This document shows positions 49,633-64,000 of a stretch of DNA of 64,000 nucleotides, one piece after another (positions within the stretch are counted from its first letter, which is position 1; each line of letters begins with the position of its first letter). A model generated the notes under the pieces. That model did no database searches. It was not told the origin of the DNA and saw nothing but the letters and a program-made list of their open reading frames with translations. The DNA comes from Bradyrhizobium sp. DOA9 (lineage in GTDB: Bacteria > Pseudomonadota > Alphaproteobacteria > Rhizobiales > Xanthobacteraceae). Where the stretch lies: positions 2,593,725 through 2,657,724 of the forward strand of contig NZ_DF820425.1 in the NCBI RefSeq assembly GCF_000617845.2, written 5' to 3'. A program made the position numbers and the translations under genes.

Positions 49633-50337
49633 TCAATTGCTCGTCGCAATGATGCTCTTCACCTGGCTCAGCGTGTAGCTGGCGCCGTCGATGGTGAGCA
49701 GCGGCGGCGACTGGGTCAGGTCGACCGACGACACCACGCCCTGCACCTGCGCGGCGATGCCGACATTGTTGTTCGCGACGTCCTTGCCCGTGGCCGAGAT
49801 CGTGTACTTGCCGTCGGGCCATTGCGTGCCGTCATTGCCCATGCCGTTCCAGGTGAAGGGAATGTCCGTGCCGGCGGCCGCGGTATATTTTCCGTTGAAC
49901 ACGGTCTGGCCGCTCGAATTGGCGATCGAGATCTCGACGGTGGAGTCGGTCGGCACGTTGAGATGCCAGACAGCCGCCGAGTTGGTCATGGTCGCGGTCG
50001 AGCCGTCGACCAGCGCGGTCTTGCCGACGAAGCCCAGCGCCTGGGTCGCCTGCGTGGTCTGCTGCAGGGTCACGAGCTGGGCCAGCGCATCGTTGGTCTT
50101 GAGCTGCTGCTCGACGCCGGCGAACTGCACCAGTTGCTGGGTGAACTGGTTGGTGTCGAGCGGATCGAGCGGATTCTGGTTCTGCAGCTGGGTCGTCAGC
50201 AGGGTCAGGAAGGTCTGGAAATTGCCGGCGAGCGTCGACCCCGTGGTCGAGCTCATTGACGAATTCGACGAGGATTTCGGAATGTCGGTCGTGCCGGAGA
50301 CGACCGAGGGCGCCGTGGCGGCATTCGTGGTGGTCAT
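49633..50337 (-). CDS. flgD: Flagellar hook-cap protein FlgD
   Basis: A 234-residue scaffold needed to polymerise the hook. The conserved N-terminal segment reads FLTLLTTQLQNQNPLDPLDTNQFTQQLVQFAGVEQQLKTN, typical of FlgD, followed by the Tudor/FnIII-like half (VPTDSTVEISIANSSGQTVFNGKYTAAAGTDIPFTWNGMGNDG TQWPDGKYTISATG region). No signal peptide, as expected for a flagellar-exported protein. It follows fliK by 13 bases, so the two are co-transcribed. Confidence 0.96.
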   Translation of the reverse strand: MTTTNAATAPSVVSGTTDIPKSSSNSSMSSTTGSTLAGNFQTFLTLLTTQLQNQNPLDPLDTNQFTQQLVQFAGVEQQLKTNDALAQLVTLQQTTQATQALGFVGKTALVDGSTATMTNSAAVWHLNVPTDSTVEISIANSSGQTVFNGKYTAAAGTDIPFTWNGMGNDGTQWPDGKYTISATGKDVANNNVGIAAQVQGVVSSVDLTQSPPLLTIDGASYTLSQVKSIIATSN

Positions 50338-55461: not shown

Positions 55462-56358
55462 TTAGTGCGAGGAACCTGCGGTCCCGCCCCCGAGTTGCGC
55501 TACGAGCCAATCTGCAAAGGCTCGTACCGCGGATCTCTGTCGGCTGGCGCGCGGGTAGATCAGGCGATGGCCGACGTAGCGGATATCGTTGGCGTGTCCT
55601 GCCAGGGGCGCAACCAATCGCCCGCTTGCCAGTTCGCGTTCGGCCAGAAGCGTTGATTCCAACGCTACTCCCAAACCCTCCGCGGCTGTCGCGATCGCGA
55701 GAAAGCTGCGATCGAATCTCATGCCATGGAGTGCAGGGGCCTCCAATCCGTTCGCCGTGAACCATTGGTGCCACTGAATCTGTTTCACATCCGAGCGGAT
55801 CAGCGTCTGATCGAGAAGATCGGCAGGCTTCCTGATCGATTTTGCCAGGGCAGGCGAGCAGAGCGGGGTGACCGTCTCCTCCGCGAGAGGGACAACTTCA
55901 ACACCCTCCGCGCGCGGCGGACCGTAAACGATATCGATATCAAAATCATCGTTGCTGAAGCGAGCGTAGTCCGTGCTCGCAGCCAGGCGGACTTCGAGCT
56001 TCGGGTAAGCGGCGAGAAACTGTGCAAGCCGGGGTGCAAGCCACTGCGCAGCAAAACTGGGTGCCGAATGGACGCGCACCAATTGTGGTCCGCGCGCGGC
56101 GACTTCTTCGAGGCCACGGCGAAGCTGATCGAAGGCCGCTCCCGTGTGGCGCATCAGATTTTCGCCGGCCGGCGTGAGCCGCACCGATCGCGCGCTGCGT
56201 TCGAACAGAACGGTGCGAAGCGTGTCCTCCAGCTTGCGGATGGCATGACTGACGGCACTCGGCGTCAGGTGAAGTTCATTCGCCGCATCGCGGAATGATC
56301 CCGTGCGAGCGGCGGCTTCAAAGGCGCGAATTGCCGATATCGGAACATTCGATAGCAT
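55462..56358 (-). CDS. LysR-family transcription regulator (GcvA-like)
   Basis: A 298-residue regulator, normal length. The N-terminal HTH reads AIRAFEAAARTGSFRDAANELHLTPSAVSHAIRKLEDTLRTVLFERSARSVRLTPAGE. The remainder is a periplasmic-binding-like effector domain (VRVHSAPSFAAQWLAPRLAQFLAAYPKLEVRL, DIDIVYGPPRAEGVEVVPL). The protein is of the GcvA/AmpR branch. It is divergent from the SDR-transketolase-TRAP operon, 116 bases away, with a T-N11-A site between, so it most likely controls that operon. Inducer unknown. Confidence 0.94.
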   Translation of the reverse strand: MLSNVPISAIRAFEAAARTGSFRDAANELHLTPSAVSHAIRKLEDTLRTVLFERSARSVRLTPAGENLMRHTGAAFDQLRRGLEEVAARGPQLVRVHSAPSFAAQWLAPRLAQFLAAYPKLEVRLAASTDYARFSNDDFDIDIVYGPPRAEGVEVVPLAEETVTPLCSPALAKSIRKPADLLDQTLIRSDVKQIQWHQWFTANGLEAPALHGMRFDRSFLAIATAAEGLGVALESTLLAERELASGRLVAPLAGHANDIRYVGHRLIYPRASRQRSAVRAFADWLVAQLGGGTAGSSH

Positions 56359-56366
56359 TCTATAAG

Positions 56367-56379
56367 TGAACCAGATTCA
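56367..56379. promoter_or_regulatory. LysR-type T-N11-A palindrome
   Basis: TGAA-CCAGA-TTCA: a perfect four-base dyad that fits T-N11-A, nine bases upstream of the lysR-type ATG and 96 bases before the SDR gene. A candidate regulator site for both. Confidence 0.55.
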
Positions 56380-56474
56380 TCGATCCGTGACAACTGTGCG
56401 TTTGTCTGTTGCGCGTCCACGGGGCATTCCTAGCCTTGCCCTTGCCAATGAAAAACAATTTGCGGGAGGAACTG

Positions 56475-57224
56475 ATGCTGCTCCGCGGTAAGACGGCCAT
56501 CATTTCGGGCGCGGCATCGCCGCGCGGCATCGGGCTTGCCACGGCACGCCGGTTCGCTGCCGAGGGAGCTCGGGTCGCCATTCTGGACATCGATGCTGAC
56601 GCTGCGGCGGATGCTGCAGCACCGCTTGGAGAGTCCCACATCGGCCTTCGGTGCGACGTCGCCGACAAATCGTCCTGCGAGCAGGCCGTCACCCGGGTGA
56701 TCGAATCCTTCGGCACCATCGATATTCTGATCAACAATGCTGGCATCACCCAACCGGTGAAGCTCATGGAAATTACGGCGGCCGACTGGGATCGCATTCA
56801 GGATGTCAATCTGAAAGGCGTTCTGTTCCTCTCCCAGGCCGTGATCCCGCACATGCGCGCGCGCAGGTCAGGATCGATCGCCTGTATGTCCTCGGTTTCG
56901 GCCCAGCGCGGCGGCGGAATCTTTGGCGGCCCGCATTATTCGGCGGCCAAGGCTGGCGTGCTCGGTCTCGCAAAGGCGATGGCCCGTGAGTTTGGCCCGG
57001 ACGGCATCCGCGTCAATTGCGTGACGCCGGGCCTGATCGGCACCGATATCACCGCGGGCAAGCTGACGGACGAGATGAGGGTGAAGATCCTGGAAGGTAT
57101 TCCGCTCAATCGCCTCGGCACGGCAGACGACGTCGCCGGCATTTACACTTTCCTGGCCTCGGATCTCTCCGCCTACGTGACTGGTGCCGTGATCGACGTC
57201 AACGGCGGCATGCTGATCCACTGA
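56475..57224 (+). CDS. Short-chain dehydrogenase/reductase
   Basis: A 249-residue classical SDR. Cofactor motif SGAASPRGIGLATARRF has one residue more than the usual TGxxxGIG. Later motifs: LDIDADAAADAA (Asp favours NAD), INNAGITQPVKL, the catalytic Ser in CMSSVSAQ and the Tyr-x-x-x-Lys in YSAAKAG, and GIRVNCVTPGLIGTDI. The start is ATG 56475, behind GGGAGGA. The substrate is probably a sugar alcohol or hydroxy acid, judged by the neighbours, which is inference. First gene of the catabolic operon; the transketolase gene begins 16 bases later. Confidence 0.92.
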   Translation: MLLRGKTAIISGAASPRGIGLATARRFAAEGARVAILDIDADAAADAAAPLGESHIGLRCDVADKSSCEQAVTRVIESFGTIDILINNAGITQPVKLMEITAADWDRIQDVNLKGVLFLSQAVIPHMRARRSGSIACMSSVSAQRGGGIFGGPHYSAAKAGVLGLAKAMAREFGPDGIRVNCVTPGLIGTDITAGKLTDEMRVKILEGIPLNRLGTADDVAGIYTFLASDLSAYVTGAVIDVNGGMLIH

Positions 57225-57240
57225 GCCAAGGTCCAGATCG

Positions 57241-58080
57241 ATGGAAACGCTGACGAACACGCCCAAGCTGGCGGACCGCGCCTACAACATTCGTCGCAAT
57301 GCGCTGCGCATGGGCGAGGTTCAGGGCCAAGGCTATATTGCACAGGCGCTGGACATCTCGGACGTCCTCGCCGTGGCCTATTTTCACGCGATGCGCTACC
57401 GGCCGGAAGATCCCTCCTGGGAAGACCGCGACCGCTTCCTGCTCTCGAACGGGCACTATGCCATCGCGCTCTACGCAGCTTTGATCGAGGCGGGGATCGT
57501 CCCGGAGGCCGAACTCGAAACGTATGGCAGCGACGAGAGTCGCCTGCCGATGTCGGGCATGGCCTCCTACACGCCCGGAATGGAAATGTCGGGTGGCTCG
57601 CTCGGGCTTGGGCTCAGCATAGCCGTCGGCATGGGCCTCGGACTCAAGCGAAAGAAATCCGACGCGCGGGTGTACACCTTGTTCTCCGACGGCGAGCTCG
57701 ATGAAGGCTCGGTCTGGGAAGCCATCCAGTCGGCAGGCCATTACAAGCTCGACAATCTGATCGGCATTGTCGACGTCAACAATCAGCAGGCGGATGGTCC
57801 TTCGACACAGGTCATGGCGTTCGAGCCGCTGGTCGAGAAGCTTCAGGCCTTCGGCTGGTTCGTGCAGAGGATCGACGGCAATGATCTCAATGCCGTTGTT
57901 GCCGCGTTCGATGTCGCCAAGTCTCATCCCGCGCCCAAGCCGCGGATGATCGTCGCCGACACGCTGATGGGCAAGGGCGTTCCCTTCCTGGAGCAGCGCG
58001 AGAAGAACCATTTCATCCGCGTCGAGCAGCACGAATGGCAGCTGGCGCTGGCCGCGCTAGAGGCCGGGAGGCAGGCATGA
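57241..58080 (+). CDS. Transketolase-like enzyme, N-terminal (ThDP-binding) subunit
   Basis: A 279-residue protein equal to the first domain of transketolase. ThDP/metal-binding pattern is SDGELDEGSVWEAIQSAGHYKLDNLIGIVDVNNQQADG, with Ser in the place of the first Gly of the common GDG. Other marks are LSNGHYAIALYAAL, GGSLGLGLSIAVGMGLGLK. Such split transketolases, encoded as two adjacent genes, occur in dedicated carbohydrate pathways in many proteobacteria, where the substrate is often not known. Its stop overlaps the next gene's start (ATGA), so the subunits are made together. Confidence 0.93.
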   Translation: METLTNTPKLADRAYNIRRNALRMGEVQGQGYIAQALDISDVLAVAYFHAMRYRPEDPSWEDRDRFLLSNGHYAIALYAALIEAGIVPEAELETYGSDESRLPMSGMASYTPGMEMSGGSLGLGLSIAVGMGLGLKRKKSDARVYTLFSDGELDEGSVWEAIQSAGHYKLDNLIGIVDVNNQQADGPSTQVMAFEPLVEKLQAFGWFVQRIDGNDLNAVVAAFDVAKSHPAPKPRMIVADTLMGKGVPFLEQREKNHFIRVEQHEWQLALAALEAGRQA

Positions 58081-59087
58081 AGACTGTCAGATCAGCACCC
58101 CAGCCGGGCAAGCCGCGCCTGACCACCTCGGCCATGATCGCCTCGATTGCGGCGGAGGGACAGAAGACGAGGCCGGCGCCGTTTGGACACGCGCTCGTCG
58201 AGCTCGCGCGCAGCCGTCCCGATGTGGTCGGCATGACAGCCGATCTCGGCAAATACACCGACCTGCACATCTTCGCGAAGGAATTTCCGGACCGCTACTA
58301 TCAGATGGGCATGGCCGAGCAGCTTCTGTTCGGCGCCGCTTCCGGTCTTGCCGCTGAAGGCTTCATGCCATTCGCAACGACATACGCGGTGTTCGCTTCG
58401 CGCCGTGCTTACGACTTCATCCATCAGACCATCGCGGAGGAAGACCGCAACGTGAAGATCGTCTGCGCATTGCCCGGACTGACCTCGGGCTATGGCCCGA
58501 GCCATCAAGCGGCGGAGGATCTCGCGCTGTTTCGCGCCATGCCGAACATGACGGTCATCGACCCCTGCGATGCCCATGAAATCGAACAACTGGTGCCTGC
58601 GATCGCGGCGCATCAGGGGCCGGTCTATATGCGCCTGCTGCGAGGCCAAGTGCCGGTCGTGCTCGACGAATACGACTACAAGTTCGAGCTCGGCAAAGCC
58701 AAGCTGATCCGTGACGGGAAGGATGTTCTGATCATCTCATCGGGCATCATGACCATGCGGGCGCTCGAGGCGTTGCAAGCTCTGAAGAACGACCGCGTCG
58801 ATGCTGCGGTGCTCCACGTTCCGACTATCAAGCCGCTCGACGCCGACACGATCCGGCGTGAAGCCGGCAGGTCAGGCCGCCTGGTCGTCGTTGCCGAAAA
58901 CCACACGACGATTGGCGGTCTCGGCGAGGCGGTCGCCGCACTCCTGATGCGTTCAGGCGTCCATCCGCCGTTCCGCCAGATTGCATTGCCGGACGAATTT
59001 CTTGACGCCGGCGCACTACCGACACTGCACGACCGTTACGGCATTTCCACCGCCGAGGTTGCAAGGCAGATCAAGCAGTGGCTTTAG
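58077..59087 (+). CDS. Transketolase-like enzyme, C-terminal (pyrimidine-binding) subunit
   Basis: A 336-residue protein with the transketolase middle domain and C-terminal domain: RPAPFGHALVELARSRPDVVGMTADLGKYTDLHIFAKEFPDRYYQMGMAEQLLFGAASGLAAEGFMPFATTYAVFASRRAYDFIHQTIAEEDRNVKIVCALPGLTSGYGPSHQAAEDL. The Glu that activates ThDP is in MAEQ. The last 110 residues are the ferredoxin-reductase-like end domain (VVVAENHTTIGGLGEAV). It is coupled to the N-terminal subunit by ATGA overlap. The pair would move a two-carbon ketol unit. Confidence 0.93.
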   Translation: MKTVRSAPQPGKPRLTTSAMIASIAAEGQKTRPAPFGHALVELARSRPDVVGMTADLGKYTDLHIFAKEFPDRYYQMGMAEQLLFGAASGLAAEGFMPFATTYAVFASRRAYDFIHQTIAEEDRNVKIVCALPGLTSGYGPSHQAAEDLALFRAMPNMTVIDPCDAHEIEQLVPAIAAHQGPVYMRLLRGQVPVVLDEYDYKFELGKAKLIRDGKDVLIISSGIMTMRALEALQALKNDRVDAAVLHVPTIKPLDADTIRREAGRSGRLVVVAENHTTIGGLGEAVAALLMRSGVHPPFRQIALPDEFLDAGALPTLHDRYGISTAEVARQIKQWL

Positions 59088-59266
59088 CGCACCGGCACTA
59101 AGCGCCAGTCAGGCCAAATCCGAGTGAAGAGTTCCGCCCGCTGCGTGCTGCGGCGGGCGAGCGATGGCTGTTGCCCGAATGCGGGTGGTCGAAGAGCCCG
59201 GACAGCTGAAAACCAGCGCAGGCTCATGCAGCCTGCCCAACGTCAATACAGGATCAGGAGGAAAAC

Positions 59267-60292
59267 ATGTCTGTCTCGAAGCCCGGACGCATCAGCCGCC
59301 GTTCGCTGTTGGCAGCGGCGAGCGCCGTACCTCTCTGCGGGATTCTGACCCGTCCGGCGTCTGCCGCCGAGTTCGTCTACAAGTTCGCAACCGGACAGGA
59401 CCCGACCCATCCGGTGAACATCCGCGCGCAAGAGGCGATCGACCGCATCCGCGAAGCGACCAGCGGACGGCTGGAGATCAGGCTGTTCCCGGCCAATCAG
59501 CTCGGCTCCGACACCGAGCTGCTGACCCAGGTTCGCAGCGGCGGCGTCGAGTTCTTTAACCAATCCTCCTCGATCCTTGCCACCCTGGTGCCAAGCGCCG
59601 GCATCGTGAACACCGGCTTCGCATTCACCAATTACGACAGCGTGTGGAAGGCGATGGACGGCGACCTCGGCACCTACATCCGTGCGCAGATCGCCAAGAC
59701 ACCGATCATGGCGGTGTCAAAAGCCTGGGACAACGGCTTTCGCCAGGTGACCTCGTCCGGCCGCGAGGTGCGAACGCCGGATGATCTGAAGAATTTCCAG
59801 ATCCGCGTTCCGCCCGCGCCGCTGCTGACCTCGCTCTTCAAGGCGCTCGGCGCCGGGCCGACGCCGATCAACTTCAACGAGGTCTATTCCGCGCTGCAGA
59901 CCAAGGTCGTCGACGGCCAGGAGAATCCGTTGCCCATCATTGCGACCGCGCGACTCTTTGAGGTGCAGAGCACGTGCAGCCTGACGGGGCACGTCTGGGA
60001 CGGCTACTGGATCCTCGGCAACAAACGCGCCTTCGAGCGCCTGCCGAAGGACGTGCAGGAGATCGTGACGCGCGAGCTCGACCGCTCGGCCGTCGATCAG
60101 CGCGCCGACATCGCAAAGCTCAGCCAGTCACTGCGCGCCGATCTTTCTGCCAAGGGCCTCAACTTCATCGACGTCGATCGCGCCGCCTTCCGCCAGGCCC
60201 TGGCGAAGACCAGCTTCTACGCCGACTGGAAAGCCAAGTTTGGCGAGGAGGCATGGTCGCAGCTCGAAAAAGCCGCGGGCCAGTTATCATGA
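59267..60292 (+). CDS. TRAP transporter substrate-binding protein (DctP family)
   Basis: A 341-residue periplasmic receptor with a twin-Arg signal (ISRRSLLAAASAVPLCGILT). DctP motifs: FKFATGQDPTHPVNIRAQEAIDRIREATSGRLEIRLFPANQLGSDTELLTQVRSGGVEFF, and a conserved Arg for carboxylate binding in NFQIRVPPAPLLTSLFKALGAGPTPINFNEVYSALQTKVVDGQENP. The conserved Arg suggests an organic-acid ligand, typically a sugar acid. It is 179 bases after the transketolase genes and overlaps the permease gene (ATGA). Confidence 0.93.
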   Translation: MSVSKPGRISRRSLLAAASAVPLCGILTRPASAAEFVYKFATGQDPTHPVNIRAQEAIDRIREATSGRLEIRLFPANQLGSDTELLTQVRSGGVEFFNQSSSILATLVPSAGIVNTGFAFTNYDSVWKAMDGDLGTYIRAQIAKTPIMAVSKAWDNGFRQVTSSGREVRTPDDLKNFQIRVPPAPLLTSLFKALGAGPTPINFNEVYSALQTKVVDGQENPLPIIATARLFEVQSTCSLTGHVWDGYWILGNKRAFERLPKDVQEIVTRELDRSAVDQRADIAKLSQSLRADLSAKGLNFIDVDRAAFRQALAKTSFYADWKAKFGEEAWSQLEKAAGQLS

Positions 60293-62181
60293 CCAGCGTG
60301 AGCCATACGCCCCACGTCGATGCCGGTATGGCGGCCGGTGCGTCTCAAGCGGGTTCGCGCCGCTGGGTGGTCGCGGCGAACAGTATGCTCGGTCATATCG
60401 TCGCTGTACCTGCAGCACTGCTCGTGCTCGCGGAAATCGCGGTGCTGTCCGCGGGGATTGTGAGCAGATATTTGTTCCGCTCGCCGATCGTCTGGTCTGA
60501 CGAGCTTGCCGGCATTCTCTTCCTCTGGCTCGCCATGCTCGGATCGGTGATCGCGTTTCAACGCGGCGAGCATATGCGGATGACCGCCATCGTCGGCGTC
60601 CTCAGTGCGGAAGTTCGCGCATTCCTGGATGTCGTGGCGGCCGCAGCATCGCTGGCCTTTCTCGTGCTAGTGGTCTGGCCGGCCTACGAATTCGCGGCCG
60701 ACGAAGCCTTCGTGACGACGCCGGCGCTTGAGATCGTCAACAGTTGGCGTGCGGCAGCATTGCCGGTTGGGATCGGACTGATGCTGATCGCAGCGGTCCT
60801 CCGACTCATCCGCATCGCGAGCCTGCGCAGCTTGCTAGCTTCGGTCGCAATGGTCACAGGCATCATCGGGGCGTTCGTTCTGCTCGCTCCCGTTTTGAGG
60901 CCGCTAGGCAATCTGAATCTCTTGATCTTCTTCGTGTTCGTGGTCGGCGCGATGGTCTTCGCAGCCGTACCAATCGCGTTCGCATTCGGCCTCGCCACGG
61001 TCGGCTATCTCGCCCTGACGACCAGTACGCCTGACGTGGTGGTGATCGGACGGATGGACGAGGGCATGAGCCACCTGATCCTGCTCGCCGTGCCGCTCTT
61101 TGTCTTTCTCGGCCTCCTGATCGAGATGACGGGCATGGCGCGGGCGATGGTCGGCTTCCTGGCGAGCCTTCTGGGCCACGTGCGTGGTGGACTGCACTAC
61201 GTGCTGGTGGGAGCGATGTATCTGGTCTCGGGCATTTCTGGGTCCAAAGCGGCCGACATGGCTGCGGTGGCTCCGGTCCTGTTTCCCGAGATGCGGCAGC
61301 GTGGGGCCAAACCGGGAGACCTCGTTGCGCTTCTGGCGGCAACCGGCGCGCAGACCGAAACGATCCCGCCCTCGCTGGTCCTGATCACGATCGGCTCGGT
61401 GACCGGCGTGTCGATCTCGGCGCTCTTCACTGGCGGGTTGCTCCCGGGCGTGGTGCTTGCGGTCATGCTCGCGGCCGTGGTCTGGTGGCGATACCGCCGC
61501 GAAGACCTGTCTCACGTCAAACGGGCTACCGGCCGGCAAATCGGGCGGGCCTTTGTGATCGCGATACCTGCTATCGCACTGCCGTTCGTGATCCGCACGG
61601 CGGTCGTCGAGGGCGTTGCGACGGCAACGGAAGTCTCGACGATCGGCATCCTGTACTCGGTCTGCGCGGGTCTGTTCATCTACCGCCAGTTCGACTGGCG
61701 TCGCATCTATCCGATGCTGGTCGAGACAGCCTCCCTATCAGGGGCGATTCTGCTTATCATCGGCGCGGCTACGGGCATGGCCTGGGCGCTGACCCAGTCG
61801 GGATTTTCTGCCTCTCTCGCCAAGTTCATGACCGGCCTGCCGGGCGGGGTACCGGTCTTCCTAGCGGTGACGATCGTGACTTTCGTGATCCTCGGCAGCG
61901 TCCTGGAAGGGATTCCCGCGATCGTCCTGTTCGGTCCGCTGCTGTTCCCGATCGCGCGGCAGGTCGGGGTGCACGATGTCCACTACGCGATGGTAGTCGT
62001 CCTTGCCATGGGCATCGGGCTGTTCGCGCCGCCGTTCGGCGTCGGCTACTACGCGGCCTGCGCCATCAGCCGCATCAATCCGGACGAGGGCATGAAGCCG
62101 ATCGTGGGCTATATGATCGCACTCCTGATCGGCACGCTGATCGTTGCGGCTGTGCCTTGGCTGTCAATCGGTTTCCTTTGA
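60289..62181 (+). CDS. TRAP transporter, fused small and large permease (DctQM)
   Basis: A 630-residue integral membrane protein joining DctQ (residues 1-200, VVAANSMLGHIVAVPAALLVLAEIAVLSAGIVSRYLFRSPIVWSDELAGILFLWLAMLG with FQRGEHMR) to DctM (from about 220, FAVPIAFAFGLATVGYLALT, LFVFLGLLIEMTGMARAMVGFLASLLGHVRGGLHYVLVGAMYLVSGISGSKAADMAAVAPVLFPEM). The G-x-S-G-S-K-A-A-D region and PPSLVLI are DctM marks. Sodium-driven import with the DctP receptor. Fusion of Q and M is a known variant. Confidence 0.94.
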   Translation: MTSVSHTPHVDAGMAAGASQAGSRRWVVAANSMLGHIVAVPAALLVLAEIAVLSAGIVSRYLFRSPIVWSDELAGILFLWLAMLGSVIAFQRGEHMRMTAIVGVLSAEVRAFLDVVAAAASLAFLVLVVWPAYEFAADEAFVTTPALEIVNSWRAAALPVGIGLMLIAAVLRLIRIASLRSLLASVAMVTGIIGAFVLLAPVLRPLGNLNLLIFFVFVVGAMVFAAVPIAFAFGLATVGYLALTTSTPDVVVIGRMDEGMSHLILLAVPLFVFLGLLIEMTGMARAMVGFLASLLGHVRGGLHYVLVGAMYLVSGISGSKAADMAAVAPVLFPEMRQRGAKPGDLVALLAATGAQTETIPPSLVLITIGSVTGVSISALFTGGLLPGVVLAVMLAAVVWWRYRREDLSHVKRATGRQIGRAFVIAIPAIALPFVIRTAVVEGVATATEVSTIGILYSVCAGLFIYRQFDWRRIYPMLVETASLSGAILLIIGAATGMAWALTQSGFSASLAKFMTGLPGGVPVFLAVTIVTFVILGSVLEGIPAIVLFGPLLFPIARQVGVHDVHYAMVVVLAMGIGLFAPPFGVGYYAACAISRINPDEGMKPIVGYMIALLIGTLIVAAVPWLSIGFL

Positions 62182-62226
62182 CGACATGACCGGACGCCTC
62201 GCGGGCAAAGCGCGCGAGGCGCCTTG

Positions 62227-63117
62227 TCAGGCGAATTTCGGCAAATGCAACGGCAGGCCGTCACAGGGCATATCGATCTCCTCGACCTGGCCCTTGCCGA
62301 CCTCCGTCACCCGTAGCTTTCTGCCCTCGGGCGTAAAGGCGCAATTCGTCGGCTGGGCTCCATCCAGGACCAGACGATCGTCGACCCCACCCCGCCGGTC
62401 GAGCACCGTAACGTTCTTCTGGTTGTAGACCGTGCAATAGAGCCGGCCGTCCGTTCCGAAGGCCATCCCGTCCGGCCCTTTGAAGTCCGGATTGGAATCC
62501 GGCTGCAGGACGTTTCCGAAGACGACGCGTTTCGGCGCTGCCTCGCCAAGCACGTTATATCGATAGACCTCGCCGGTGAAGGACGCGTTGGCGTAGAGGT
62601 GGTTGTCGGGGCCGAAGACAATGCCGTTGGTGAAGCGGATCTTGCGATCGAGCACGCGGAGCACCTTCATGGCTGCCGGATCGATCTCATACACACGGCC
62701 GTCCCAGTCGAGGTCCATATAACCGTCGACGAAGGCCTGGCCGTTGATGAAATCCTCGGCGGCCATTCCGGAGTCGGTCATGTACAGTAGTCCGTTCGGG
62801 CCGAAGCAGAGGTCGTTCGGAAATAGAAAGCGCTCCGCGCCTTCGCCCTGCATGCGCCGGATCTCGTTGCCGCTCTCGTCGATGCAGATCAAGGCCCGCA
62901 GGCCAGCCTCCGCGATCCAGATGCGGCCGTGGCCATCGGTCGTCAGTCCATTCGGACGGCCACCCGTCGTTCGGATCACGCGGCGATTGCCGCGAGGATC
63001 GAGCCGCGTGACGCAAAGGGTCGACGCCGACATCTCCGTGACATACATCGAGCCGTCGGGCAGGCACACCGGACCCTCCGGCGCGCCAATTCCGGTTGCA
63101 AACAGTCTCGACGCCAT
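62227..63117 (-). CDS. SMP-30/gluconolactonase-like protein
   Basis: A 296-residue six-bladed beta-propeller of the SMP-30/gluconolaconase/LRE family: GAPEGPVCLPDGSMYVTEM, GRPNGLTTDGHGRIWIAEAG, FLFPNDLCFGPNGLLYMTDSG, FTNGIVFGPDNHLYANASFTGEVYRY, GMAFGTDGRLYCTVYNQKN. Conserved Glu (GAPEGP) and Asn/Asp (PNGL, TNGI, PDGMAF) match the metal-binding site. Likely hydrolyses a sugar lactone to the sugar acid. It converges on the TRAP permease gene 45 bases away and shares its strand with the ABC ATPase gene. Confidence 0.92.
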   Translation of the reverse strand: MASRLFATGIGAPEGPVCLPDGSMYVTEMSASTLCVTRLDPRGNRRVIRTTGGRPNGLTTDGHGRIWIAEAGLRALICIDESGNEIRRMQGEGAERFLFPNDLCFGPNGLLYMTDSGMAAEDFINGQAFVDGYMDLDWDGRVYEIDPAAMKVLRVLDRKIRFTNGIVFGPDNHLYANASFTGEVYRYNVLGEAAPKRVVFGNVLQPDSNPDFKGPDGMAFGTDGRLYCTVYNQKNVTVLDRRGGVDDRLVLDGAQPTNCAFTPEGRKLRVTEVGKGQVEEIDMPCDGLPLHLPKFA

Positions 63118-63148: not shown

Positions 63149-64000
63149 TTATGCGATGACCAGGCCGCTGGCCGGATCGATCAGCACCACGCGATTGAGG
63201 TCGATGGCGAGATCGATCCGCTCGCCATGGCTGCTGACGTCGTGCGCCTGCAGCTCGGCGACGGCATCGATGCCGCCGATCTTGATGGTGGTGAAGGTGC
63301 GTGTCCCCGTCGGCTGAATGAGATCGGCGGTGGCCGAATAGGAGACCGTGCCTTCGCGCAATGGCCCGCCGGCCCGACTGAAGTGCTGGGGCCGAATGCC
63401 GACGAGAATCTCTCGCCTATCCATACTGGCCAGCGGCCTCGCCTTCGCGCTCGGAAGCGTCAGTTCACCGCCGGACTGAAACACCACTGCGGCGTCGCGG
63501 CCGTTTGTCTTGAGGGTCGCGGGGATGAGGTTGATCGAGGGAGAGCCGAGAAAGCCGGCAACGAACCCCGTGCGCGGCTGCTCGAACAGCTCGAGCGGAG
63601 CGCCTTGCTGCTCGATCTGTCCCTCGCGCAGCAGCACGATGCGGTCGGCCAGCGTCATCGCCTCGACCTGGTCATGGGTAACGTAGATCATTGTCGTCGT
63701 GATCTCGTGATGTAGGCGCTTGATCTCGGTGCGCATTTCGTCACGCAACTGAGCGTCGAGATTCGAGAGCGGCTCGTCGAACAGGAACAGGTCGGCCTTG
63801 CGAACGATGGCGCGGCCGATGGCGACGCGCTGACGCTGTCCTCCGGAGAGCTGCCGCGGATAGCGCTGGAGGAGATTGCTGATGCCGAGCATCTCGGCGG
63901 CTTCACCGACCCGCTTCCTAATCTCGATCTCGGGAGTCTTGCGCGCGCGCAGACCGAAGGCGATGTTCTCGCTGACGGTCAGATAAGGGTAGAGCGCATA
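63149..64000 (-). CDS. Sugar-type ABC transporter ATP-binding protein (5' end outside the window)
   Basis: A MalK/UgpC-type ATPase cut by the window edge; 283 codons plus the stop are inside and the frame is open through 64000. Seen: [21 protein letters not shown] (Q-loop part), [20 protein letters not shown] (signature), [20 protein letters not shown] (Walker B and D-loop), [11 protein letters not shown] (H-loop) and C-terminal TOBE domain ([17 protein letters not shown]). Walker A lies beyond the edge. It suggests a second, ABC-type uptake system beside the TRAP transporter. The SMP-30 gene begins 31 bases downstream on the same strand. Confidence 0.93.

Follow-up and report, generated by a model that had tools for sequence, protein, structure and literature searches.

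The 64,000-nucleotide stretch of Bradyrhizobium sp. DOA9 analyzed here (the window, G000:C1:2593725-2657724, in a 7.85 Mb genome made up of a 7.11 Mb and a 736 kb contig) carries a gene cluster built around a split transketolase, the subunits of which we call TktN and TktC (together TktNC). A gene for a LysR-type regulator diverges from genes for a short-chain dehydrogenase/reductase (SDR), TktN, TktC and a tripartite ATP-independent periplasmic (TRAP) transporter (DctP, DctQM); facing these are genes for a lactonase of the SMP-30/gluconolactonase family and for a sugar ATP-binding cassette (ABC) transporter. With about evenly balanced confidence, we read the cluster as a kinase-free catabolic module for a short, lactonizable hydroxy acid, most likely one of five carbons (C5). 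This reading is carried by a family-wide change of the transketolase substrate site, by the linkage of the genes, by their retention as a second copy in the same genome, and by a conserved operator.

The substrate site of TktNC

Relatives with a TktC at least 65% identical to that of the window make up family A, for which 145 TktN and 148 TktC sequences were aligned and compared with a reference of 29 full-length transketolases encoded in the neighborhoods. All 145 TktN proteins have Tyr where 28 of the 29 reference enzymes have His, and Ser at a second position that is His in all 29; likewise, Leu is found in 148/148 TktC proteins in place of a His that is invariant in the reference, and the loop following this Leu is shortened by one residue. 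The chains of the Carboxydothermus hydrogenoformans and human enzymes show the canonical His, as the reference does. We take the lost positions to be H26, H100 and H461 of the Escherichia coli enzyme; the canonical transketolase His residues contact donor hydroxyls, the acceptor or phosphate. The catalytic Glu, the His of the SNGH motif and the His of the GPSHQ motif, presumably E. coli E411, H66 and H473, are retained (alignment column 113 of TktN, 145/145; columns 169 and 234 of TktC, 148/148). Because the invariant replacements fall at substrate-contact positions, these alignments suggest a new donor specificity, the donor probably being something other than a sugar phosphate.

A full-length transketolase, group d10, accompanies TktNC in 29/150 family A loci (L057, L061, L077, L105, L141 and others) and adjoins a D-2-hydroxyacid dehydrogenase (D2HADH) in several of them. 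Near the phosphate site, d10 also seems to differ from the E. coli enzyme in some residues and therefore falls short of an ideal canonical reference.

A second family, B, is 49–55% identical and carries the same Tyr, Ser and Leu changes in 15/15 sequences each; among the matches listed, one family A member being a partial sequence, none fell between the two identity ranges. Family B loci (L162, L164, L167, L168 and others) have the order SDR-TktN-TktC-dehydratase, with galactonate-dehydratase-like proteins of the enolase superfamily and ABC transporter genes, and probably represent a sister pathway. A third split transketolase, on an Ensifer adhaerens plasmid (L181), is 34% and 36% identical and has the Tyr together with an LPG motif.

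Linkage, second copy and operator of the cluster

The gene layout (Table 1) agrees with a preliminary description made from the sequence alone: the regulator gene, the SDR, TktN, TktC, DctP and DctQM genes diverging from it, the facing lactonase and ABC ATPase genes, the ATGA overlaps of TktN with TktC (58077-58080) and of DctP with DctQM (60289-60292), and the palindrome ahead of the regulator gene were all recovered, the overlaps and the palindrome exactly. All of the genes are open frames with Pfam families matched above curated cut-offs, among them the Transketolase_N, Transket_pyr and Transketolase_C domains of TktNC and the DctP, DctQ and DctM domains of the TRAP transporter. The HYSAAK sequence of the SDR is presumably its YxxxK motif; among the 25 best NCBIfam models listed, this protein passes only the cut-off of the generic 'glucose 1-dehydrogenase' subfamily. 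Extending the analysis rightward, as the preliminary description had proposed, recovered the remaining ABC components: the ATPase gene runs 249 bp past the window and is followed on the same strand by genes for two permeases and a solute-binding protein, to about window-equivalent position 67580. The whole unit thus comprises eleven genes, with LysR / SDR-TktN-TktC-DctP-DctQM facing SMP-30-ABC ATPase-two permeases-binding protein. A domain scan of the window cluster and the extended ABC operon found no kinase or aldolase, as had been noted for the part first in view.

Table 1. Features of the cluster, in window coordinates.
Feature	Position	Strand	Remarks
LysR-type regulator	55462..56358	-	best model GcvA, 260 bits vs cut-off 288
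Operator TGAACCAGATTCA	56367..56379	.	TGAA-N5-TTCA, T-N11-A type palindrome, exact
SDR dehydrogenase, 249 aa	56475..57224	+	HYSAAK motif
TktN, thiamine-diphosphate-binding subunit of split transketolase	57241..58080	+	
TktC, pyrimidine and C-terminal domains of split transketolase	58077..59087	+	
DctP, TRAP solute-binding protein	59267..60292	+	
DctQM, fused TRAP permease	60289..62181	+	
SMP-30/gluconolactonase-family lactonase	62227..63117	-	SGL domain 96.9 bits, cut-off 26.3
Sugar ABC transporter ATPase	63149..64000, cut by window end	-	

The TktNC family is spread across Alpha-, Beta- and Gammaproteobacteria. In three overlapping survey samples, and with the genome of the window counted, family A was present in 9/385 genomes of the class, 47/397 of the order and 22/398 of the phylum. 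Plasmid records contribute as well, with TktC at 60% identity or more in 189 of the 963 records that gave a match (annotated examples come from Rhizobium, Pantoea and Paraburkholderia). A separate contig scan for TktC relatives supplied the best 80 of 556 loci, at identities of at least 79%. Altogether 150 family A loci were collected, 63 of them fetched from the survey, and neighbors were counted within 9 kb. The codon-usage script that called the genes overlooks or shortens some of them, DctP of the second copy and a portion of an SMP-30-like gene in L067 being examples, so that the counts are lower bounds; neighbor families were scanned on chosen representatives, covering part of the clusters.

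Near TktC in the 63 survey loci are TktN (61), an SDR at least 58% identical (54) and LysR (45), and a recognized transporter is found in 42; a TRAP of the window type occurs in 7, another TRAP in 25, a major facilitator superfamily (MFS) protein in 4 and an ABC transporter of either type in 6. Apart from ABC types, transport thus falls to two groups of TRAPs or to MFS proteins; for the MFS protein of L098, the D-galactonate model comes closest, with a score under the cut-off. A full-length transketolase occurs in 11 of these loci, a beta-hydroxyacid dehydrogenase (bHAD) in 10, any of three lactonase groups in 9 and a DRL-type oxidoreductase in 4. That the SDR-TktN-TktC core persists while transporters vary suggests that oxidation followed by ketol transfer is the central chemistry.

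Linkage places the ABC and lactonase genes within the pathway. The two occur together in 17/150 family A loci, the ABC transporter alone in none and the lactonase alone in 8; put differently, a lactonase marker lies near in 17/17 loci that have the ABC binding-protein marker. Among the eight, the binding protein lies just past 9 kb in L022 and L023, SMP-30 is kept with a partial ATPase gene in L024, L063 and L175, and the lactonase belongs to the third group in L033, L132 and L133. In L124, LysR diverges from a single run of SDR-binding protein-two permeases-ATPase-TktN-TktC-SMP-30 with gaps of -4 to 132 bp, its ABC proteins being 70–86% and its SMP-30 protein 73% identical to those of the window unit. 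Bradyrhizobium sp. BTAi1 (L030) has LysR / SDR-TktN-TktC-DctP-DctQM-RbsA-RbsC-RbsB-Amidohydro_2 with gaps of at most 82 bp. Here, as in other loci, an Amidohydro_2 protein, fuconolactonase-like, replaces SMP-30, the two lactonase families alternating; the three scanned (L093, L098, L132) match the L-fuconolactonase model alone, below its cut-off. A search for Protein Data Bank (PDB) relatives of the ABC binding protein returned distant ones only, the best at 52 bits.

The preliminary description had allowed that the ABC genes might belong to an unrelated operon, which is contradicted by the single run of L124 and by the duplication of the entire unit described below. That SMP-30 and the ABC genes are chance neighbors is accordingly something we hold to be extremely unlikely: the ABC binding-protein marker is missing within 9 kb in 57/63 survey and 72/80 best-scan loci (L022 and L023 falling just outside), against which stand L124, the retention of SMP-30 and ABC genes in both copies, the ABC marker never occurring without the lactonase marker in the 150 loci, and operator sites upstream of separate ABC operons in L013, L114 and L145.

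The second copy, on contig C2, has the same eleven genes and encodes proteins 92–97% identical to those of the window unit. Window-equivalent positions 55490-67846 align with C2 (L011, 4986-17340) at 86.7% DNA identity, and no further match was found between the compared stretches (L011 on one side and, on the other, everything from window position 50000 through the end of L010). Between the copies, dN/dS for the seven genes covered is 0.040 for LysR, 0.061 for SDR, 0.044 for TktN, 0.045 for TktC, 0.036 for DctP, 0.053 for DctQM and 0.044 for SMP-30. As dS amounts to 0.43–0.87, the copies diverged long ago or arrived separately, and both have been kept under purifying selection. In Bradyrhizobium sp. 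184, the annotation of plasmid p184_1 (L099) shows these same eleven genes. The C2 copy is flanked (L011, L012) on its left by an amino-acid-type ABC cluster and on its right by genes that resemble, by eye from the N-termini, a flavin reductase and a 4-hydroxyphenylacetate 3-monooxygenase.

The palindrome TGAA-N5-TTCA recurs in 52/60 LysR/SDR intergenic regions of the fetched loci (eight are without it; 16/20 among survey loci), whereas 200 single-base shuffles of these sequences gave a mean of 0.085 and a maximum of 1; as the regions come from related loci, they are not 60 independent tests. Its conservation is thus above chance. The exact 13-mer TGAACCAGATTCA occurs twice in the 7.85-Mb genome, only at the two cluster copies, and the reversed control pattern has no occurrence there. 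Across 2.92 Mb of family A loci, 140 sites were counted where some 45 would be expected. The LysR/SDR interval holds 55 of them, 34 stand ahead of SDR alone and 6 ahead of LysR or TktN. Sites that occur singly, upstream of RbsA (L114, L145), an ABC binding protein (L013) and a second transketolase (L149, L091), are only suggestive because the other 40 sites, elsewhere, are close to the chance expectation. Near the ABC operon of the window genome, nothing closer than a relative with one mismatch is seen; this site, TGAACCGCAGTCA, precedes the called start by about 260 bp. We propose that LysR would act through TGAA-N5-TTCA. Another one-mismatch operator, TGAAACAGATTCA, lies on the minus strand within the LysR coding sequence (window 55775-55787) and reflects either chance or autoregulation; it is one of six sites in the genome with at most one mismatch.

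A candidate route and its alternatives

The preliminary description had outlined the import of a sugar acid or lactone, its oxidation by the SDR and the transfer of a two-carbon (C2) unit by a split transketolase, an enzyme type that is often specific to one pathway; the route would not be a standard one. The genes are consistent with this outline, the chemistry of which we specify conditionally. The lactonase and the TRAP or MFS transporters point to an aldonic acid and its lactone: the TRAP transporter would import the free acid, and the ABC transporter the lactone or a neutral precursor, to be opened by the lactonase. The SDR would oxidize the acid to HOCH2-CO-C(OH)...-COO-, which has the shape of a transketolase donor, and TktNC would transfer the C2 ketol to an acceptor, probably an aldose of the pentose phosphate pathway (for instance, glyceraldehyde 3-phosphate, giving xylulose 5-phosphate). 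A three-carbon (C3) acid, hydroxypyruvate or tartronate semialdehyde, would be released. Its reduction would yield glycerate, and phosphorylation of the latter 2-phosphoglycerate; some relatives seem to encode the enzymes for both steps in the operon.

The fullest operons would contribute these last steps. Azospirillum griseum (L061) has TktN-TktC-SDR-bHAD-DctP-DctQM-full-length transketolase-D2HADH-glycerate kinase with gaps of at most 147 bp; its DctP and DctQM are 73% and 74% identical to the window proteins, and its kinase (52%), D2HADH (64%), transketolase (70%) and bHAD (73%) were related by identity to the nearest scanned representatives. L155 has SDR-TktN-TktC-TRAP-D2HADH-glycerate kinase, the last two genes overlapping by 4 bp, and L156 shares this order. 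The L155 kinase belongs to the MOFRL proteins, with glycerate 2-kinases as its nearest models, and the D2HADHs from L057 and L138 match 2-hydroxyacid dehydrogenases; none of these scores reaches its equivalog cut-off. In the window genome, a MOFRL gene of the glycerate kinase family is present in trans (C1:2275588). If these glycerate-forming genes, found in a minority of loci, disclose a C3 remainder, then the acid would have five carbons.

Several observations weigh against this proposal. Of the 63 survey loci, 3 have glycerate kinase near TktC (at a distance of about 8 kb in L149) and 10 have D2HADH, so that the C3 fate rests on a minority of loci. The ABC markers lie within 9 kb in 6/63 survey and 8/80 best-scan loci. 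An SDR is missing from 9/63 survey loci, two of which have bHAD and seven neither. The best model of bHAD is L-threonate dehydrogenase in 3/3 proteins scanned, which points to a four-carbon (C4) acid. Finally, the solved binding protein nearest DctP, 4oan, which we take to be a 2-acetolactate binder, is a paralogue and not an orthologue. The 86% orthologue of 4oan in the window genome is the L185 protein (C1:4861679), and the ligand is therefore not transferable to DctP. We had considered carrying it over and rejected this, as L185 (G000:C1:4853000-4872000) sets the 4oan orthologue and a DctQM beside genes that resemble, by their N-termini, extradiol dioxygenase, hydrolase, hydratase and monooxygenase genes, and looks like an aromatic-degradation cluster. 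One section of a review (PMC5812351) gives 2-acetolactate as a TRAP ligand and does not name 4oan. What 4oan binds may be worth re-examining.

The C4 indications lend weight to a tetronate route, an alternative that we consider possible if on the doubtful side. L-Threonate or D-erythronate would be oxidized at C3, by the SDR for one epimer and bHAD for the other, and TktNC would split 3-oxotetronate into a C2 unit and glyoxylate. Two lines of evidence keep this route in consideration: i) the bHAD of L125 scores 375.7 against the cut-off of 350 for the NCBIfam L-threonate dehydrogenase (L059 and L094 are below it), and bHAD adjoins TktNC with no SDR found in L125 and L147, as well as in L094; and ii) the TRAP binding proteins of L140 (4p47, 4p9k/4pak, 4pdh, 4nq8 and 4pdd among the six best PDB matches) and L129 (4p47, 4nq8 and 4p9k/4pak among the five best) resemble structures several of which contain D-erythronate or pantoate. 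Two further neighborhoods would also fit: L067, where genes resembling GlcD and GlcE lie close to TktNC, and L064, with a gene for pyruvate kinase. Against it, glyoxylate leaves the D2HADH-glycerate kinase pair unexplained where there is no carboligase (L061, L155), and two PF07005-type acid-sugar kinase genes elsewhere (C1:3404317 and C1:6577429) indicate that a standard tetronate route may already exist in the genome. For a TIM-barrel protein near TktNC in L096 and L128, considered as a 2-oxotetronate isomerase, the L096 protein gave no NCBIfam match at E 1e-10.

More doubtful is a reading in which the donor, a C5 ketol acid, is branched and resembles 3-oxo-isoapionate, HOCH2-CO-C(OH)(CH2OH)-COO-. 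TktNC would cleave it at the tertiary alcohol, hydroxypyruvate then being taken by D2HADH and glycerate kinase; if true, acids derived from apiose would have one more kinase-free route. A DRL_cat-type oxidoreductase (PF21135, assigned from the two scanned representatives L071 and L150) is plausibly a hydroxymethyl-migrating enzyme. Such a gene lies within 9 kb of TktNC in 8/150 loci (L055, L071, L073, L076, L117, L150, L151, L152) and, in Alsobacter (L055), sits between LysR and SDR. DRL_cat is present in 204/397 order-sample genomes, including that of the window and all 14 listed genomes of the same genus, of which 2 (G361, G523) have TktNC; a phylogenetic correlation with TktNC was considered and set aside as uninformative. 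The single DRL gene of the window genome is about 650 kb from the window (L179), in a stretch that is partly masked, beside what appear by eye to be genes for a TRAP-type binding protein, a dioxygenase-like protein and fatty-acid-type proteins.

We judge a hexonate route improbable. Here an acid of the 5-keto-gluconate type would yield a C2 unit together with tartrate semialdehyde, in line with a proposal that a transketolase cleaves 5-keto-D-gluconate during the formation of tartaric acid in grape (PMC7970118). The SDR has a match to gluconate 5-dehydrogenase, at 174 bits and below the cut-off of 279, but its matches are generic, and the recurrent neighbor clusters scanned, a part of the neighbors, contain C3-acid enzymes and no tartrate-semialdehyde enzyme.

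Lower still is the likelihood that TktNC is a decarboxylating carboligase resembling 1-deoxy-D-xylulose 5-phosphate synthase (DXS), which would use a 2-oxo acid made by the SDR in place of a ketol donor. TktC reaches 192.6 bits with the DXS model (250.5 with transketolase), and the His residues lost are among those that contact donor hydroxyls in canonical enzymes; TktN, in contrast, scores only 28.7 bits with DXS against 234.3 with transketolase. A phosphorylated branched ketose, as in apiose catabolism by AptAB, with its kinase elsewhere in the genome, is very unlikely: in the apiose cluster of E. coli SE15, a sugar ABC transporter and two SDRs likewise accompany a split transketolase (PMC13001218), but identity is only 36% between TktN and AptA and 30% between TktC and AptB, both His residues lost in the TktN family are present in AptA, and the window cluster has no sugar kinase (among neighbors in other genomes, kinases were not systematically scanned).

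Relation to known systems

The gene set is widespread and apparently undescribed; a literature search, with most subscription papers outside its reach and therefore weak as evidence of novelty, found no published description of it. Known threonate and erythronate pathways combine LtnD with DUF1537 kinases (LtnD-OtnK-OtnC). They share with TktNC relatives an LtnD-like dehydrogenase, present in some of these, and a 3-oxo acid intermediate, and differ in their acid-sugar kinase, with none in the window cluster and the two PF07005 genes far off. The closest solved structure is the split transketolase of C. hydrogenoformans (6yak/6yaj), both subunits being 43% identical over the printed stretches; it differs from the TktNC family in its canonical His residues. 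Rif15, as described in PMC6002545, is encoded by two overlapping genes and transfers from sugar-phosphate donors to rifamycin S; by this description it is, like TktNC, a split transketolase with overlapping genes specialized away from the pentose phosphate pathway, but it is biosynthetic. The apiose cluster (PMC13001218) likewise unites a split transketolase, an ABC transporter and SDRs, and differs from the TktNC cluster in its kinase AplK, besides the sequence divergence and the canonical His residues of AptA given above.

The nearest functional parallel is SqwGH, a split transketolase that, according to PMC11659671, moves a C2 ketol from an unphosphorylated anionic ketose to glyceraldehyde 3-phosphate, yielding xylulose 5-phosphate and, in the end, leaving 2-sulfoacetaldehyde. 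As described, SqwGH and the proposed TktNC route are alike in a split enzyme and in a C2 ketol drawn from an unphosphorylated, negatively charged ketose. They differ in the charged group and the way in: a sulfonate reached through an isomerase for SqwGH, and presumably a carboxylate reached through SDR and lactonase for TktNC, with no isomerase, neither for sulfoquinovose nor for sulfoerythrose, among the eleven cluster genes. If the C5 acid proposal is true, the use of plant-derived sugar acids by this gene family would have a transketolase at its center, in place of a kinase with an aldolase or a RuBisCO-like enzyme; with the operon of Bradyrhizobium BTAi1, the route can be tested directly. 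The TktNC cluster would then be the carboxylate counterpart of the sulfo-transketolase route.

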